Below, piece by piece: positions 1 to 10,881 of a DNA stretch of 47,038 bases. The stretch covers positions 1-47,038 of the forward strand of contig CADCTD010000133.1 of assembly GCA_902805545.1 (NCBI GenBank), read 5' to 3'. The DNA comes from an uncultured Craurococcus sp. (lineage in GTDB: Bacteria; Pseudomonadota; Alphaproteobacteria; Acetobacterales; Acetobacteraceae). How positions within the stretch are numbered: the first letter of the stretch is position 1; every line of letters starts with the position of its first letter. A program made the translations under genes and the position numbers. The notes below the pieces were generated by a model. The model was not told the DNA's origin. It made no database searches and was given only the letters and a program-made list of their open reading frames with translations.

Positions 1-129
1 GCGCGGCGGGTCGCTGAGGGCGTGGCCGCGGAACTGGCCGGGCGCGACGAGGCGGAGATGCTCCGCCAGCGCGACGCGCTGCTGCTCGACCTGCTGCGGC
101 GGAAGGCGGGGGCAGTGGAGTTGCCCTAA
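1..129 (+). CDS. C-terminal end of an unidentified protein (5' truncated)
   Basis: Frame 1 is open from the window edge to a TAA at 127-129 and gives the last 42 residues of a protein. The stretch is rich in Ala, Arg, Glu and Leu and would form a charged amphipathic helix. No domain can be recognised from so short a tail. It converges with the GH3 gene, and the two stop codons overlap by a few bases. The frame might be a chance opening in GC-rich DNA, but the tight convergent packing favours a real gene end. Confidence 0.5.
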   Translation, partial: ARRVAEGVAAELAGRDEAEMLRQRDALLLDLLRRKAGAVELP

Positions 130-1688
130 CCCCCTCGCAGCCCCGCTTCGGCGGCCGCGAACCGCTCGGGGTCCGCCAGCACTCGCGGCACCTTGTGCTG
201 CCCGCCGAGCTTCCCCTGCGCCCGCATCCAGCCGGCGAAGGCGCCTGGCGGCAGCAGCACCAGCTCCGGCGCTGCCATCTGCCCGCCCTGGCGATGTGCG
301 GCATAATCCTCGTTCGCCGCGATCAGCGCCGCATCCACCGCCTGGGCCAGCCGCTCCGTCAGGCCGGGCGCGGCCGCCGCCTCCGGCTCCACCAGCCAGC
401 GATGCGTCCCCTGCGCGCCGAGGAAGACCGGCCCCACCGTGTAGTCGGCGACCGTCACGCCGAGCGCCTGCGCGGCGCCGAGCAGGGCCGCCTCAATTTC
501 CTCCCCGGTCAGGTGCTCGCCGAAGGCCGAGAGGCTGTAGGAGGTGCGGCCTGTGACCAGCAGCCGCGGCGGTGCGCGCTCGACGAAGCGCACCGTGTCG
601 CCCAGCACATAGGACCACAGCCCGGCGCAGGAGGTGACGATGACGGCATAGTCGATCCCCGTCTCGACATCGGCGACCCAGTGCCGGGTCGGGCTCAGCC
701 GGTCCAGCTCCCCCAGCGGCACGAATTCCCAGAAGACGCCGGCATCGAGGGTGAGGCGCATGCCCTCGCCATCGCCCCGGTCGGCCAGCGCGACGAAACC
801 CTCGCTCGCCGGATACACCTCCCGCGTCGCGCAGCCAGGCGGCAGGAAGGGTCGCAGCCGGTCGCGATAGGGCGCCCACGCGACGCCGCCATGGACCAGC
901 AGCTCCAGCCCCGGCAGCGGCGGGGCACCATGCCGCTCGGCCAGGCGCCCCAGCAGCACCAGCAGCCAGCTCGGCGTGCCGGAGAGGACGCGGATGGCCG
1001 CCGCCGGCGTCGCCTCGGCCAGCGCCGCCAGCTTGCGGTCCCAGTCGGGGAGCAGGGCGATCTCCGCCGGCGGGAAGCTCCAGGCGCGCAGCAAGGCCGG
1101 CACCTCCGCCGCGGCGATGCCGGAGAGGTCGCCCTGCCGCACGCCGGGCGCCACCCGCTCCAGCGCCGTCGAGCCGCCGAGCATGAAGGACGGTCCGCCG
1201 AAGATCGCGCTCCGCGGATGGTGGTGCAGGTGCCAGGCCAGCACGTCGAGCGCCGCCCGCCGGTTGCCGCGCATCATCGGCGCGGTGACGGGGATGTACT
1301 TCGTCGTCCCCGAGGTGGTGCCGGAGGAGAGCGCGAAATAGGGCACCCGCCCCGGCCAGGTGACGTCGACCAGCACCGGGTATGCGGCCTGCCACCAGTC
1401 GCGCCAGAAATCCTCGTAGCGCCGCAGCGGCACCCGTGCCTGGTAGTCCGCGACGCCGCGTATGCCGGCGAAGCCATGCGACTTGCCGAAGCGCGTTCCT
1501 GCCGCCCGGTGCAGCAGGCGCGCCAGGAGCCTTGCCTGCGTGGCGACGGGGTCCATCCGCCGCACCCGCGCGATGCGCAGCGCCGAGGCCGCCCGCAGCA
1601 GCGGCGTCGCATCGAAGGGCGGCAAGGTGGGGCGCGGCCGCGTCAGGCCGCCGCGCCCTGCGGCGCCTGGGCCATCGGCCGCGCTCAC
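126..1688 (-). CDS. GH3-family acyl-acid adenylate-forming enzyme
   Basis: This 520-residue protein has the features of the GH3 family, the ANL-superfamily branch best known in plants, where it conjugates auxin or jasmonate to amino acids. The Ser/Thr-rich phosphate-binding motif SSGTTSGTTK lies at about residues 121-130. The adenine-site motif YPASEG is at about 292-297, and the hinge-region signature ending in LGDTVRF at about 361-368. The start is a GTG overlapping the stop of the upstream acylase gene (GTGA), which implies translational coupling. Bacterial GH3 proteins are widespread, but substrates are known for few. By family the likely reaction is ATP-dependent acyl adenylation followed by amide or thioester formation. 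The substrate cannot be read from sequence. It is the last gene of a leftward set that begins with an ethylene-receptor-like kinase. Confidence 0.88.
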   Translation of the reverse strand: MSAADGPGAAGRGGLTRPRPTLPPFDATPLLRAASALRIARVRRMDPVATQARLLARLLHRAAGTRFGKSHGFAGIRGVADYQARVPLRRYEDFWRDWWQAAYPVLVDVTWPGRVPYFALSSGTTSGTTKYIPVTAPMMRGNRRAALDVLAWHLHHHPRSAIFGGPSFMLGGSTALERVAPGVRQGDLSGIAAAEVPALLRAWSFPPAEIALLPDWDRKLAALAEATPAAAIRVLSGTPSWLLVLLGRLAERHGAPPLPGLELLVHGGVAWAPYRDRLRPFLPPGCATREVYPASEGFVALADRGDGEGMRLTLDAGVFWEFVPLGELDRLSPTRHWVADVETGIDYAVIVTSCAGLWSYVLGDTVRFVERAPPRLLVTGRTSYSLSAFGEHLTGEEIEAALLGAAQALGVTVADYTVGPVFLGAQGTHRWLVEPEAAAAPGLTERLAQAVDAALIAANEDYAAHRQGGQMAAPELVLLPPGAFAGWMRAQGKLGGQHKVPRVLADPERFAAAEAGLRGG

Positions 1689-3943
1689 GGCCGCAGCACC
1701 GTCACGCGCGGGAACTCGGCGGCGACCGTCTCCGGCCTGAGCGGCAGGCGGATGCTGCGCCCCTCGCGCCAGAGCGGGATCTGGTCGGCGAAGGCGGCGC
1801 TGCCGAGCCAGCCATCCTGCCCGCCGAACAGAGTGAACCAGTTGGAGTCGAGGTCGGCGAGGTCCGAGACGTAGCGCGCCATGGAGCCGAAGCTCACCTC
1901 ATGCGGGCCGCCGACCAGGCCGTGCCCGGTCTTCATCGGCGTCTCGCGCGAGCCGCCGACCGGGATCTCCTGTAGCACGAAGGCACGGCCGAGCACCGGC
2001 AGGTTCACCAGCCAATGCGCCGCCCGCAGCTGGTGGATATCGCCCCAGACGCGGTAGCGCGCGGCAAGCGGCGCCGCCTCCGCCGCTGCCTGGCGCAGCA
2101 GCGCGGCGCGGCGCGGCTCCGGCAGCCTGTCGAGGTCGCGGAGCATGAAGGTGGTGATGAAATTCCACCCCGTCTCCAGCCCGCGCCCGCTGCTGCCCTC
2201 CGGCAGCAATCCCGGCAGCAGCCGCCCGAGCAGCAGCTCGAAGACCAGGGCGGCGCGGCTCCCGGCGGCATAGTCGCCATCCCAGCCGCGCAGCGGGGCG
2301 AGGAAGTCCGGCGCCCCGCCCGGCAGCGCATCGAACCGCGCCAGTAGCCCGGCCGCGAGCACTGCCGCCTTCGGGGCGAGGGTGTCGCGCTGCGAGGCGG
2401 CGAGGTCCTCCGGCGTCAGCCTCGGCCGTGCCATCAGCAGGGCGCGCAGCCGCGCCACGCGGTCCCCATCGCTGAAGAAATAGCCGATCGGCGGCGCGTC
2501 CCGCGTCCAGGTCGCCGGGTTCTCGTTGGCCGAGGCGAGGACGCCCTCCGGCGGGTTCTCGAGCGCCGGCAGGTCCCCGGCATGCAGCAGGTGCGACCAC
2601 GGCCCGGTCGCCGCCGGATCGGCCCCGTCCAGCACCGGGTCCTGGGCCGGGAAGCCGGGCCGGGCGGGCAAGATGGCCGCCGTCAGCCGCCCGATGGTCC
2701 CGGCCCGGTCGGCGTAGAGGAAGTTCTGCGGCGAGACGGCGAAGCTCTCGAAGCTCGCCCGGAATTCCGCGCCGCTCCGGGCGCGGGCGGCGCGCAGCAG
2801 GCTGGTGATCTCATCCGCCGGCTCCTGCCCGGCCCAGCGCAGCGCGATAGCGTCGCCCGGCCGGCTTGGCACCACGCTCGCATCCGTCAGCACCGGCCCG
2901 AGCGGCGAGACCCGCACCCGCCGCGTCGCGTCGAACCAGAAGCGCTGGCGGATGCTGGTCTCCGCCTCGGTGAAAGCCTCCGGCGGCAGGCGGGAGACGT
3001 CGAAGAGGTCGGAGGACGCGGCGCGCAGGTTGGTCCCGCCCCAGGCCAGGTCCGGGTTGCGCCCGAGGCCGATGATCGGCACCCCGGGCACCATCATCCC
3101 GACCGCGTGGAAGCTGGGCGAGCGCATCCCGACCAGCAGCCAGAGATTGGGGAGCGACAGGCCGAGATGCGGGTCGGAGGCCAGCATCGCCGCCCCGGAG
3201 GCGCTGCGCGAGGGCGCGACCGCCACCGCATTGCTGCCCGCGCGCGACAGCCCGGCCAGCAGCCCCGGCAGGTTCGCCTCCCGCGGCGCGGGCGGGGTGA
3301 GGTTGGCGCCGGCCTCCAGCGTCCGCCGCCAGGCCGCGGCGAAGCCCGGCTTCCCCCGCTCGGCCAGCAGGGAGAAGTAGGAGAACCAGTTCACATCCGT
3401 CCCCGCCAGCCGGCCGATCGCCAGCAGGTCGGTGGTGGTGAAGGCCTCCCGACGCAGGCCGAGCAGGCCGAATTCGGGCGGCCGCGGCCCCTCCAGCGCC
3501 GCCTTGTTCAGCCCGGCGAGGAAGGCCGCCATGAAGGCCCGGGTCTCAGGGGGCCAGCGCCGCTCGATCTCCGGCGCCGCCCGGTCGAAGCCGAGGATGC
3601 GGATCGCATGGTCGTAGTCCCGCGCCAGCGGCCCCGCCATCTCGGAGAGCCGCCCGCGCGCCACCATCCGCAGCAGGGCGATCTGCCCGCCGCGCAGGTG
3701 CCCGTGCACCAGGCCGAGCGCATAGGCGAGGTCGGCATCCGACCCGGCCTCGATCCAGGGAACCAGATGCTCGTTCCAGCGGATGGTGACCGGCCCGGCG
3801 AGGCCGAGCCCCTCCCGCGGCAGGGCGGCCAGCCGCTGCTCGATCCCGGTCGGCCGCGGCGCCAGCGCGCCGCAGCCCGGCAGCAGGGCGAGCAGCGCGA
3901 GCGCCAGGGCCGCGCCCGGCCGTTTCCCCTTCGATCCCGCCAC
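1685..3943 (-). CDS. Penicillin acylase family Ntn-hydrolase, predicted lipoprotein
   Basis: From the GTG at 3943 the protein has 752 residues. This start is preferred over a TTG at 3997 because GGGGGAG precedes it at good spacing and because it places a basic n-region directly before a hydrophobic stretch. That stretch ends in the lipobox LLPGC (Cys24), so a periplasm-facing lipoprotein is predicted. The nucleophile motif GSN occurs at about 236-238, giving Ser237 as the new N-terminus after autoproteolysis. It is followed by the conserved SDPHL segment, typical of acylases that split one chain into alpha and beta subunits. Members hydrolyse amides such as beta-lactam side chains or acyl-homoserine lactones. 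The substrate here is unknown. The stop overlaps the GH3 start; 77 bp separate it from the response regulator upstream, so it may share that transcript. Confidence 0.88.
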   Translation of the reverse strand: MAGSKGKRPGAALALALLALLPGCGALAPRPTGIEQRLAALPREGLGLAGPVTIRWNEHLVPWIEAGSDADLAYALGLVHGHLRGGQIALLRMVARGRLSEMAGPLARDYDHAIRILGFDRAAPEIERRWPPETRAFMAAFLAGLNKAALEGPRPPEFGLLGLRREAFTTTDLLAIGRLAGTDVNWFSYFSLLAERGKPGFAAAWRRTLEAGANLTPPAPREANLPGLLAGLSRAGSNAVAVAPSRSASGAAMLASDPHLGLSLPNLWLLVGMRSPSFHAVGMMVPGVPIIGLGRNPDLAWGGTNLRAASSDLFDVSRLPPEAFTEAETSIRQRFWFDATRRVRVSPLGPVLTDASVVPSRPGDAIALRWAGQEPADEITSLLRAARARSGAEFRASFESFAVSPQNFLYADRAGTIGRLTAAILPARPGFPAQDPVLDGADPAATGPWSHLLHAGDLPALENPPEGVLASANENPATWTRDAPPIGYFFSDGDRVARLRALLMARPRLTPEDLAASQRDTLAPKAAVLAAGLLARFDALPGGAPDFLAPLRGWDGDYAAGSRAALVFELLLGRLLPGLLPEGSSGRGLETGWNFITTFMLRDLDRLPEPRRAALLRQAAAEAAPLAARYRVWGDIHQLRAAHWLVNLPVLGRAFVLQEIPVGGSRETPMKTGHGLVGGPHEVSFGSMARYVSDLADLDSNWFTLFGGQDGWLGSAAFADQIPLWREGRSIRLPLRPETVAAEFPRVTVLRP

Positions 3944-4020
3944 CCCGTTCTCCCCCAGGCATCCCCGGGGAGATTGGCCGCAGGACCGATGAGGCAAGCT
4001 GTTGAAACGAAACCGGACAT

Positions 4021-4401
4021 TCAGCCGTGATTGGCAACCTGGCGGATGGCGTCGACCAGCCGCGCCAGCTCGATCGGCTTGGTCAGCAATTCGAGCGGGG
4101 CGGAGCCGTCATGCAGCTCGCCCTTGCCGCCATCGGGCGGATAGCCGGTCATCACCACCACCGGCAGTTCCGGCCGGCCGGCGCGCAGCCGGGCGATCAG
4201 CTCCCGCCCGTCGAGCCGCGGCATGCGGAGGTCGGTCAGCAGCACGTCGAAGCGGGCGCCGGCGCTGGCCAGTTCCAGCGCCGCCTCGCCATCCGGCGCG
4301 GCCAGAACCTCGAAGCCGGCGTCGAGCAAGCCCTCCTCCAGCACCTCGGCGGCGAGTTGCTCGTCCTCGGCCATCAGCACCCGGAGCGGCGCGGCCATCA
4401 T
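4021..4401 (-). CDS. Single-domain response regulator (CheY-like receiver)
   Basis: The protein has 126 residues and consists of one receiver domain. The acidic pair is Glu12-Asp13, the phospho-acceptor is Asp57 in LLTDLRMP, the switch Thr is Thr85 in VVMTGYP, and the conserved Lys is Lys108 in LTKP. There is no output domain, so it must act by protein contact or as a phosphate relay or sink. Its ATG overlaps the stop of the upstream histidine kinase (ATGA), which makes the pair translationally coupled and a likely cognate couple. The next leftward gene, a penicillin acylase homologue, starts 77 bp further on. Confidence 0.9.
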   Translation of the reverse strand: MMAAPLRVLMAEDEQLAAEVLEEGLLDAGFEVLAAPDGEAALELASAGARFDVLLTDLRMPRLDGRELIARLRAGRPELPVVVMTGYPPDGGKGELHDGSAPLELLTKPIELARLVDAIRQVANHG

Positions 4402-5936
4402 GCGGGATGCTCCTGTGCCAGCGGCAGGGCCACCTGGAACACCGCGCCGGCGCCCTGGTTCAGCCAGCCCAGCCGCCCGCCCATGCTGCGCAGGATGCCC
4501 GCGGCGATGGGCAGGCCGAGGCCGGTGCCCTCGCCCGGCTCCTTGCTGGTGACGAAGGGCTCGAGGATGCGCGGGCCGATCGCCGCCGCGACGCCGCCGC
4601 CGGTATCCTGCACGGCGAGGGTGACGCGCCCCGGCTGCGGCCCGGGGCGGAGGGTGACCTGGATCTGCCCCGGCGCATCCGGCTCCTGCCGCCGGCGGCG
4701 CAGCACGGCGTCGCGCGCATTCTCCAGCAGGTGGAGCAGGGCCTGCTCGAATTGCGCGGCGCGGCCGAGCACGGGGGCCGGCTCCGGCGCGTCGAGGGTC
4801 ACCTCGACGCGGTCGAGCGCCCAGGAGCGGCGGGCGACCTCGACGGCGGCGGCGGCGGCCTCGGCGGCGTCGAAGGTCTCGGCCTCGCCCGGCGTGTCGC
4901 GGGCGAGCTCCCGCATCCGCTCGAGCAGGGCACCGAGCCGGCGGGTCTGGCCGAGGATCACCTCGAGCGCCCGGCGCGAGGCCGGGGCGGCATCGAGCGC
5001 GGCGCGGGCGCGGTCGGCCCAGAGGCTGATGATGTTGACCGGCTGGCTCATCTCATGCGCGACGCCGGCGCACATGGCGCCGATGGTGGCCCGCCGCGCC
5101 GCCTCCACCAGGTCGGCCTGCAGGCGGCGCACCTCGGTCACGTCCCGCAGGCTGCCGAGCAGCCGGCGCGGCTGGCCGTCCAGCACCGGCAGCGGGGCCA
5201 GCACGGTATGCCAGTGCCGCGTGCCCTCGGCGCCGGCGATGGCGCTTTCCCAGTCGCGCGGCGCGCCGCTGTCGAGGCAGGCGGTGAAGGCGTGGCCCAG
5301 CTCGGCGGCTGCGGCGGCCTCGAGCAGCGCGGCGGGGCCGCTGCCCTCCACCGTCTCGCGCGGCCGGTCGAAGAGGCGGCAGAAGCTTGGATTCACCGTC
5401 TCGAAGATGAAGCCGCCGCGGTCCGCCCGCACCACGAAGAGCGCGTCCGACATGTGCTCGAAGAAGCCGGCGAAGCGCGCCTCGCTCTGCCGCGCGCGTA
5501 TTTCCGCCTCGCGCCGCTCCGCGACCTCGCGCGACAGCGCCGCGTTCGCCTCGGCGAGCTCCTGGGCGGAGGGCAGGGCCAGCACCCGCGGCAGCAGCGG
5601 CCAGAGCGCGATGGCGGTCAGCACCGAGACCAGCGTCGTCGCCGCCTTGACCACGCCCTGCAGCGCGTAATCCGGGTGCCAGAGCGTCCAGACCGACATG
5701 AAATGCGTCGCGCCGCAGGCCAGGATGAACACCGCGAAGAGCTCGAAGGCCCAGGGGAAGACGAGGTCCCGCCGCCGCAGCGCGATGACGATGAGGACGA
5801 CCGGGATGGACCAGTAGGCAAGGCCGGTCAGCACATCGGAGGTGACATGCAGCCAGAGCAGCTCCGGCCGCCAGAGCAGGCAGACACCGTGCGGCGCGAG
5901 AGCATCTGTATCGAAGAATGCGGCCAGGTTGGGCAT
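4398..5936 (-). CDS. Ethylene-receptor-like membrane PAS histidine kinase
   Basis: The 512-residue protein has three membrane helices at about 35-53, 59-84 and 92-115, then a PAS domain (about 150-270), HisKA (His294 in VAHEMSQP) and HATPase (Asn406, DTGGG at 444-448, GTGLG at 470-474). The membrane domain matches the ethylene-binding domain of plant ETR1. The ETR1 residues Asp25, Tyr32, Pro36, Phe58, Ile62, Cys65 and His69 correspond to Asp34, Tyr41, Pro45, Phe67, Ile71, Cys74 and His78, all at a constant offset of nine. Cys and His of the ACGATH segment are the Cu(I) ligands in ETR1. Similar receptors are known in Synechocystis and Azospirillum. Autophosphorylation and transfer to the adjacent receiver protein is the expected output. 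Binding of ethylene is inferred from residue conservation. Confidence 0.9.
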   Translation of the reverse strand: MPNLAAFFDTDALAPHGVCLLWRPELLWLHVTSDVLTGLAYWSIPVVLIVIALRRRDLVFPWAFELFAVFILACGATHFMSVWTLWHPDYALQGVVKAATTLVSVLTAIALWPLLPRVLALPSAQELAEANAALSREVAERREAEIRARQSEARFAGFFEHMSDALFVVRADRGGFIFETVNPSFCRLFDRPRETVEGSGPAALLEAAAAAELGHAFTACLDSGAPRDWESAIAGAEGTRHWHTVLAPLPVLDGQPRRLLGSLRDVTEVRRLQADLVEAARRATIGAMCAGVAHEMSQPVNIISLWADRARAALDAAPASRRALEVILGQTRRLGALLERMRELARDTPGEAETFDAAEAAAAAVEVARRSWALDRVEVTLDAPEPAPVLGRAAQFEQALLHLLENARDAVLRRRRQEPDAPGQIQVTLRPGPQPGRVTLAVQDTGGGVAAAIGPRILEPFVTSKEPGEGTGLGLPIAAGILRSMGGRLGWLNQGAGAVFQVALPLAQEHPA

Positions 5937-8577: not shown

Positions 8578-10881
8578 ATGCGCCTGTTCCGCGACCTGTC
8601 GGTTGGCCGCAAATTCGCCGCCAGCGCCATCCTCGCCGTCCTGCTCCTGCTGGGAATGGTGGGGCTGGTCCGGCGCGACCTCGCCCTCGCCCATGACCAG
8701 AGGGAGGCGGAGCATGCCGCCGGCACGGCGGCCCGGGCGGCGCAGCAGGCGGCGATCCACGTCGCCCGCATCGCCGCCGCCGCCCGCGGGGTGATGACGG
8801 CGCAGAAGCCCGAGGCGCTCGAGGCCGAGCTCGCCCTCATGGACGCCGAGGCGAAGCTCGCCCGGGATGCGCTGGAGGCCGCCGGCAGCGCCGCGGCCGC
8901 GCGTGCCACGCTGGCGGAGGCGGCCGCGGCGCTGCGGGACTACCAGGCCGTGCTCGCCGAGCAGGCCGGGCATCGCCGGCAGATGATCGCCGAGCGCGAC
9001 GGCCCGCTCGCCCATACCAGCGCCGACTACGACCAGGCCTATGAGGCGGTCAGCTCCTCCATCGATTTCGACGTCCCCGACGCCCTCCGGGAGGAGGCGC
9101 GCCAGCGCCTCGGCACCCTGCACGCGGCGGTGAACGAGGTTCGCCTCGGCATCCAGCGCTTCCTGGCGACCCAGGATGAGGGCCAGGCCCGGCGCGTCCG
9201 CCGCGCCGCGGCCCAGCTCGGGGTGCACCAGCGGGCGCTCTCCGCCCTGCTGCCCTCCGGCGGCGCCCAGGCCGGCTTCGAGCGCCTCGCCGTCGTCGCC
9301 CAGGCGACGAGCCGCTCCTCGCTCGAGATCATCCGGCTGGCCGAGGCGATCGCCAGCCTCCGCACCCAGCGCAGCATCCCGATCCGCGAGACGCTGGAGG
9401 CGCGCATGCTCGCCGCCGAGGAGCGGCTGGCGGCGGAGGCGGCGGAGCGCAGCGAGGCCAGCGCGGCGGCCTCTGCCCGGCTGGAGCGCAACGTGCTCTG
9501 GATCGGCGCCGCGGTGGCGCTGCTGCTGGCCCTCTCGGGCTGGGCGAGCGCCCGGGTGATCGGCGCCCCGCTGCGCCGGCTGGCCGTGGCGATGCGGGCG
9601 ATCGCGGCCGGCGATGCGGCGATCCTGGTGCCGGATCGTGGCCGGCGCGACGAGATCGGCGGCATCGCCATCGCGCTCGAGGAGCTGCGCGGCACGGTGC
9701 AGCGCGCCTTCGCCCAGCAGCAGATGCTGGAGCAGCTGCCGATGGCGGTGATGACCGCCGACCCGCGCGACGGGTTCCGCATCGGCACCATGAACCCGGC
9801 GGCCCATGCGCTGCTCGGCCGCATCGCCCATCTCCTGCCCTGCCGCGTGGAGGAGATGCCGGGCCAGAGCCTCGACATCCTGAAGCTGGAGCAGGAGCGC
9901 GCACTGCTCGAAGACCCGGGCCGGCTGCCGCACAAGGCCCGCATTCGCATGGGCGAGGAGGTGCTCGACCTCAGCCTCAGCGCGATCCGCGATGCCGAGG
10001 GCCACTACGTCAACGCCATGCTGGTCTGGTCGCTGGTGACGGCGCAGGCGCAGCTCGCCGACCGGTTCGAGGCGGAGATCGGCGGCGTGGTCGGCGCGGT
10101 CTCGGCCGCGGCGGCGCAGATGCAGGCGGCGGCCCGGGCGCTGACCGGCGCCTCCGAGACCAGCGGGCGGGAGGCGGAGGCGGTGGCCGAGGCCGGGCAG
10201 CGCGCCGGCGCCGATGTCCAGGCCGTCGCCGCCAGCGCGGAGGAGCTGGCCGCGAGCGTCGCCGAGATCAGCCGCCAGGTGGCCGATGGCGCCGCCGTCG
10301 CCGGCGACGCGGCGGCCGAGGCCCGGGCCACGGACGAGACGGTGCAGGGCCTCGCCCATGCGGCGCAGCGCATCGGCGACGTGGTGCGGCTGATCGGCGA
10401 CATCGCCGGCCAGACCAACCTGCTGGCGCTGAACGCGACGATCGAGGCGGCGCGGGCCGGCGATGCGGGCAAGGGCTTCGCCGTGGTGGCGAGCGAGGTG
10501 AAGCAGCTCGCCGGCCAGACGGCCAAGGCGACGGAGGAGATCGCCAGCCAGGTCGGCGGCATCCAGGCGGCGACGGAGAAGGCCGTAGGGGCGCTGCGCT
10601 CCATCGGCGCCATCATCGAGCGGATCAACGAGGTGACGGCGGCCATCGCCGCGGCCGTCGAGGAGCAGGGCAGCGCCACGCAGGAGATCGCCCGCAGCGC
10701 CGGCCAGGTTGCGGCCGGCACGGCCGATGTCGCCCGGCGCATCCAGGACGTGCAGCGCGCGGCGCGCGAGACGGGTGAGGCCTCGGCCGGGCTGCTCGGC
10801 GCGGCGGATGGGCTGAGCGGCGATGCCGGCACGCTCCGCGCCCGCGCCGGCGAGTTCCTCGAGGGGATCCGCCGGGCATAG
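8578..10881 (+). CDS. Methyl-accepting chemotaxis protein with PAS-like insert
   Basis: The 767-residue receptor starts at the ATG at 8578; AGGAG at 8567-8571 fits this start better than the in-frame ATG at 8572. Transmembrane helix 1 spans about residues 13-31. A long Ala/Glu-rich helical sensor region follows to about 300, then transmembrane helix 2 at about 304-325 and a HAMP domain. A PAS-like segment begins near 382 ([14 protein letters not shown]). The signalling domain occupies about 490-767, with the conserved hairpin tip around [18 protein letters not shown]. By family it controls CheA through CheW at the inner membrane. The ligand is unknown. No che genes accompany it, so it is an orphan receptor. 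Confidence 0.93.

Follow-up and report, generated by a model that had tools for sequence, protein, structure and literature searches.

A putative AzoEtr1-type ethylene receptor and its receiver-only partner in an uncultured Craurococcus, with repeated pocket loss among Acetobacteraceae orthologues

The locus described here raises the question of whether a bacterial histidine kinase that carries the binding pocket of the plant ethylene receptors is itself an ethylene receptor, and whether the regulatory system to which it belongs depends on that pocket. The window, meaning the whole stretch of DNA analysed (47,038 nucleotides of contig CADCTD010000133.1 from an uncultured Craurococcus sp.), contains at positions 4398-5936 of the minus strand a complete gene, with an ATG start and a TGA stop, for a protein of 512 amino acids that was identified as an ethylene-receptor-type histidine kinase by Pfam, residue alignment and reciprocal best matching with AzoEtr1 of Azospirillum brasilense. 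Its domain order was read directly as ETR1_N-PAS-HisKA-HATPase_c. The ETR1_N membrane domain (residues 25-121; 5574-5864, minus strand) was recognised by its Pfam match, by residue alignment and by hydropathy, the match to PF25487 (E = 6.7e-37; 126.1 bits against a cut-off of 27) covering the full profile (positions 1-97 of 97). It is followed by a PAS domain (residues 159-271; 5124-5462, minus strand; PAS_4, PF08448, E = 6.6e-11) and by a kinase core (residues 288-507; 4416-5075, minus strand) made up of HisKA (PF00512, residues 288-348) and HATPase_c (PF02518, residues 394-507), in which the catalytic residues H294, N406, D444, G446, G448, G470 and G472 are intact and His294 is likely the phosphoacceptor. 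The ETR1_N assignment is far beyond chance, because none of 14 control genomes gave a PF25487 match and this gene was the only one to do so in its own genome. Among solved structures, none matched the membrane-domain profile at E values up to 1, and all 31 matches to the whole kinase lay in the PAS or kinase part, none starting before query residue 134.

The kinase was aligned to Arabidopsis ETR1, which carries at each of the eight positions compared the residue expected there. All seven of the ETR1 residues taken to be the ethylene-binding set were found in the kinase (Asp34, Tyr41, Ile44, Pro45, Ile71, Cys74 and His78), and Lys97 of the third helix aligned with ETR1 Lys91 across a three-residue gap in the preceding loop. 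Asp34, Tyr41, Ile71, Cys74, His78 and Lys97 thus stand exactly where a preliminary description of this DNA had put them, and the loop that it had called three residues shorter is the gap seen in the alignment; its list of five pocket residues was correct but short, since the set is one of seven and Ile44 and Pro45 (ETR1 Ile35 and Pro36) had been left out. The Pfam domains and kinase residues also agree with its claim of a complete pocket joined to a PAS domain and an intact kinase core. Seven residues of ETR1 are reported to be required for ethylene binding (PMC11819568, PMC6586836). Hydropathy of the N-terminus showed three peaks, at about residues 40-55, 64-78 and 100-115, with a shallow first dip, Cys74 and His78 being placed within the second peak or at its margin. 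In the alignment both residues fall in helix 2 of ETR1, which speaks against the sequence-based objection that they might lie outside this helix.

Relatives were collected from two sources. A genome scan returned 75 loci, of which the 22 covering the membrane domain (L031-L052) were used and the 53 matching only in the PAS or kinase part were dropped. A family-wide search of 397 genomes gave 49 matches in 44 genomes at E values up to 1e-60 and yielded 30 loci, namely the window's own, 17 that repeat loci among L031-L052, 11 new ones that all belong to genus g95, and L134, which was left out; 19 weaker matches without loci lie outside the orthologue counts. L134 (genome G423) has an in-frame TAG in the membrane domain while its kinase and receiver gene are otherwise open, reflecting either decay or a sequencing error. 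The resulting orthologue set comprised 35 rows including AzoEtr1, and the nearest kinase with a species name was that of Belnapia moabensis (89% identity). Over the stretch compared, the kinases of seven genomes assigned to the window's genus match without difference those of Belnapia moabensis, B. arida, B. rosea, B. mucosa, strain F-4-1, a Belnapia MAG and Paeniroseomonas aquatica, which places the source of the window as a Belnapia-like member of the Acetobacteraceae. ETR1_N matches occurred in 29 of 120 sampled genomes of the family (28 over the cut-off) and in 20 of 289 sampled genomes of the class, the window's own genome being counted in both. In a wider survey, all seven pocket residues were present in 38 of 57 rows, which are not independent as genomes are shared between collections; these rows were the window protein, ETR1, 29 family loci, the 22 loci L031-L052, two Azospirillum sequences, Rhodovastum and Kovacikia, with L029 a doubtful match. 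Several variants were seen along the way: L051 and L052 have a full pocket and a receiver gene and no PAS domain, the membrane domain joining the kinase directly (390 and 394 amino acids from the match start); several related genomes give two or three matches to ETR1_N, the frames being of other lengths (845 amino acids in G036, by its kinase the genome of Belnapia mucosa; G036:C107:62485-62772); and elsewhere in the family the pocket Asp is changed to Asn (L012) or to Gly (L018). A further member of the family, Komagataeibacter xylinus, responds to ethylene, and no receptor is reported for it (PMC4686702). We found no open-access paper on an ethylene receptor in Roseomonas, none by title on a receptor among those listed for Belnapia and ethylene, and none that links histidine kinases carrying an ethylene-binding domain with bacterial genomes.

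The preliminary description, sound on the complete pocket and the intact PAS and kinase domains, had missed both the tested relative AzoEtr1 and a second gene that overlaps the kinase. This gene (4021-4401, minus strand) encodes a receiver-only response regulator of 126 amino acids (PF00072, E = 3.6e-19), and its start overlaps the kinase stop by 4 nucleotides (ATGA), an overlap that was exactly 4 nucleotides in 18 of the 24 rows examined, with start codons chosen mechanically. A receiver gene adjoins the kinase in all 22 loci L031-L052, in all 30 loci of the family-wide search and in all 35 orthologues. Judged by eye, the regulator's acidic residues and its phosphoacceptor Asp, Thr and Lys were kept throughout an alignment of 23 rows (the window and Azospirillum together with 21 of the 22 loci L031-L052, leaving out genus g95 and the split gene of L042), whether the neighbouring pocket was intact or eroded. 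The receiver gene is broken into two frames in L042 and in L129, which duplicates it, and in L042 the upstream permease gene is broken in the same way; these splits are perhaps sequencing errors in one genome.

Downstream of the pair, 23 nucleotides after the regulator, lies a gene for a penicillin-amidase-family hydrolase or acylase (1685-3997, minus strand; PF01804, E = 4.3e-137), which overlaps by 4 nucleotides a gene for a GH3-family protein (126-1688, minus strand) resembling the lyso-ornithine lipid synthetase OlsH (581 bits, below the cut-off of 620). These two genes are possible operon partners of the pair. Among the loci L031-L052, a same-strand acylase gene was found in 16/22 and a GH3 gene in 15/22, at distances from the pair that vary among loci, and the upstream permease and flavin reductase genes in 18/22 and 20/22, respectively; L037 and L047 lack the flavin reductase, and L047 also the GH3 gene, because their contigs end there. 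Since the permease and flavin reductase are kept too, retention of the acylase and GH3 genes may be plain synteny, and the frames after the pair differ in Azospirillum; we considered the two as the output of the system and keep them as a lead. The kinase-regulator pair is the constant part of the locus, and the remainder may be synteny only. The window also holds a methyl-accepting chemotaxis protein with HAMP, weak PAS and MCP signalling domains nearby (about 8600-10881, plus strand) and a BrkB-family membrane protein (PF03631; 44992-46899, minus strand).

Taken as an analogue of AzoEtr1, SynEtr1 and ETR1, from which the copper, the ethylene binding and the kinase inhibition are all borrowed, the window kinase is probably an AzoEtr1-type ethylene receptor working as follows. 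In the three-helix membrane domain, Cys74 and His78 of helix 2 would hold Cu(I) between them, and this copper would be the site at which ethylene binds. Binding would change the packing of the helices, steered by Asp34 and Lys97, and the change would pass through the PAS domain and linker and lower autophosphorylation of His294, so that less phosphate would reach the receiver-only regulator, the product of the overlapping gene. Having no output domain, the regulator must then act by binding a partner protein or by passing the phosphate on. A copper P-type ATPase above the family cut-off is encoded in the same genome, which is weak evidence for this mechanism because 13 of the 14 control genomes have one too. 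For ACC deaminase, the genome gave one match, at 272 bits against a cut-off of 392, and none that passes; we discarded it as evidence of ethylene metabolism, as it falls below the cut-off and 6 of the 14 control genomes also have matches, none over the cut-off.

An alternative explanation, which we consider unlikely, is that the pocket binds copper and the main signal sensed by the protein is copper, redox state or some other small ligand, ethylene binding being incidental. The Cys and His of ETR1 do form its copper site, but the same source also ties I35, P36 and I62 to ethylene binding (PMC6586836), and the window kinase keeps all seven residues, not the Cys and His alone. A second input could come from the PAS domain, and no evident ethylene gene was seen among the 16 frames scanned with Pfam, which cover part of the window and include four without a match; against this, A. 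brasilense responds to 100 ppb ethylene via AzoEtr1 (PMC11819568).

The ethylene-receptor reading can also be approached from the relatives in which the pocket has changed. Of the 35 orthologues, 26 have the complete set of seven, L041 (Siccirubricoccus deserti) carries Leu at the position of Pro45 with the other six intact, and eight are eroded, a class that was set after the residues had been seen. In L045 the Tyr and Cys are changed; in L046, L047, L048, L049, L050 and L145 the Cys is among the changes; and L144 keeps the Cys and His with four other pocket residues changed. The seven conserved kinase residues, H294 to G472, are kept in all 35, the eroded ones included. With eight of 35 orthologues eroded, ethylene sensing is dispensable for the pair. 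The change in L041 is that of the tomato Never-ripe receptor, ETR3 Pro36Leu (PMC6727826).

In a kinase tree rooted on AzoEtr1, eroded pockets appeared in the Caldovatus group, in the Roseicella pair, in the MAG04 lineage and in genus g95, the last with one or two events. A single origin of all eroded pockets was rejected both in the 35-row set, with eight rows eroded (AU p = 9.8e-61), and in a 24-row set with six (p = 0.010). The 35-row set also rejected Roseicella, MAG04 and Caldovatus as one clade (AU 4.7e-5) and genus g95 joined to Caldovatus (AU 9.9e-28), and the 24-row set rejected Roseicella joined to the Caldovatus group (0.018). Joining Roseicella and MAG04 was not firmly rejected (AU 0.004 and SH 0.43 in the 35-row set; AU 0.089 in the 24-row set), nor were the two eroded rows of genus g95 rejected as one clade (0.23). 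Overall, there is good support for three losses of the pocket, and the best tree shows four or five. That these were losses and not gains is judged from the pocket being common to AzoEtr1, a cyanobacterium and ETR1. In the open-access literature searched, we found no report of an ethylene site lost repeatedly in nature at a single conserved locus.

Constraint on the membrane domain was then compared between the two classes as its summed branch length relative to that of the kinase, with the kinase topology fixed. In the larger set, the membrane domain of pocket-intact lineages was seen directly to evolve at about the rate of the kinase (0.99), against 5.00 in eroded lineages, and the contrast remained when the eight pocket columns were removed (1.06 versus 4.80). 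The PAS domain, used as a control, showed no such rise (1.94 intact versus 1.70 eroded, 33 rows). In the 24-row set, the corresponding values were 0.80 versus 4.40 for the membrane domain and 2.24 versus 1.66 for the PAS domain, halves of the kinase gave 0.96-1.04 in intact and 0.92-1.06 in eroded lineages, and all 100 column bootstraps gave a ratio of ratios of 3.8 or more; the exact rate factor is uncertain because on two eroded branches there is more than one change per site. The relaxation is confined to the membrane domain and accompanies pocket loss. As the membrane domain sped up about fivefold in eroded lineages and the PAS domain did not, an intact pocket such as that of the window kinase is probably held by selection. 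That the membrane domain is a relic in the window's lineage, with the pocket unused and the kinase running constitutively or on PAS input, is highly improbable: eroded orthologues with intact kinase residues do indicate that the pair can work without the pocket, and the window's own membrane-domain branch (0.118, versus 0.060 for the kinase) lies above the mean of intact lineages, but none of the pocket residues is changed and the near-kinase rate of intact lineages against the fivefold rate of eroded ones, with or without pocket columns, speaks against it.

The element that is new is evolutionary, namely the repeated natural loss of an ethylene site at one conserved locus. Tentatively, and with a little less than even confidence, we suggest that one conserved sensor/regulator locus of the Acetobacteraceae repeatedly lost ethylene perception while the kinase and regulator were kept. 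The products would be natural counterparts of the ethylene-insensitive plant receptor mutants, including the Never-ripe-position Pro-to-Leu change in one lineage, and would now be always-on kinases or sensors of something else, while in lineages like that of the window selection appears to maintain the pocket. The bacterial ethylene receptors tested so far are few. The locus adds a second alphaproteobacterial lineage with the AzoEtr1 architecture, together with pocket-less relatives at the same place. Natural receptors that have the site can thus be set against others that lack it, each next to a regulator of its own, and this ready-made comparison opens to direct test what bacteria use ethylene for and what such a kinase does without it.

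Among known receptors, ETR1 has GAF and fused receiver domains: all seven ethylene residues and the helix-3 Lys are common to it and the window protein, and 30 of 97 membrane-domain residues are identical. Plant receptors are described as signalling mainly without kinase activity (PMC11819568). SynEtr1 (slr1212) of Synechocystis combines an ethylene-binding membrane domain with a histidine kinase and passes its signal to a response regulator (PMC11819568, PMC7700396). It also has a light-sensing GAF domain, and transcription is activated by its regulator slr1213, whereas the window protein has a PAS domain and a receiver-only regulator. The cyanobacterium Kovacikia (L114) has 55 of 97 membrane-domain residues in common with the window protein.

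The closest experimentally tested protein that we found is AzoEtr1, from a root bacterium. A search of a plasmid collection returned seven records with at least 80% query coverage, all from Azospirillum and at 44-46% identity, and when 510 residues of AzoEtr1 served as query in the window's genome, the kinase came first (E = 3.9e-136; next match 8.7e-46, outside the membrane domain), so that by sequence the two are reciprocal best matches, in the plasmid collection one way and in the window's genome the other. Both have the ETR1_N-PAS-kinase order (525 amino acids in AzoEtr1, 512 here), all eight pocket positions align, with AzoEtr1 numbering equal to that of the window protein plus one, and in both a receiver-only gene (AzoRR-etr1) overlaps the kinase stop in the same gene order. 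The copy in A. brasilense Sp7 (L106:7983-9560) was read as a 525-residue frame followed by an overlapping receiver gene of 135 amino acids, the regulator starting 7 nucleotides before the end of the kinase gene. Identity is highest in the membrane domain (64%, against 35% in the PAS domain and 39% in the kinase). The two differ in that identity over the whole length is 44-47%, the Azospirillum gene lies on plasmid ABSP7_p1, and the frames after its regulator, as translations read by eye, are neither acylase nor GH3. They differ also in that ethylene binding was measured for AzoEtr1, while the window protein is known from its sequence. Residues 1-130 of AzoEtr1 bind labelled ethylene, and the D35A and C75A variants, which correspond to Asp34 and Cys74 here, did not rescue biofilm formation, with the two-plasmid set-up as the authors' caveat; the same source predicts kinase inhibition by ethylene and calls AzoEtr1 the first proteobacterial ethylene receptor (PMC11819568). 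Since AzoEtr1 has the same domains, the same gene order and published ethylene binding, the window kinase is best filed as a new putative member of the AzoEtr1 type and not as the first of its kind.
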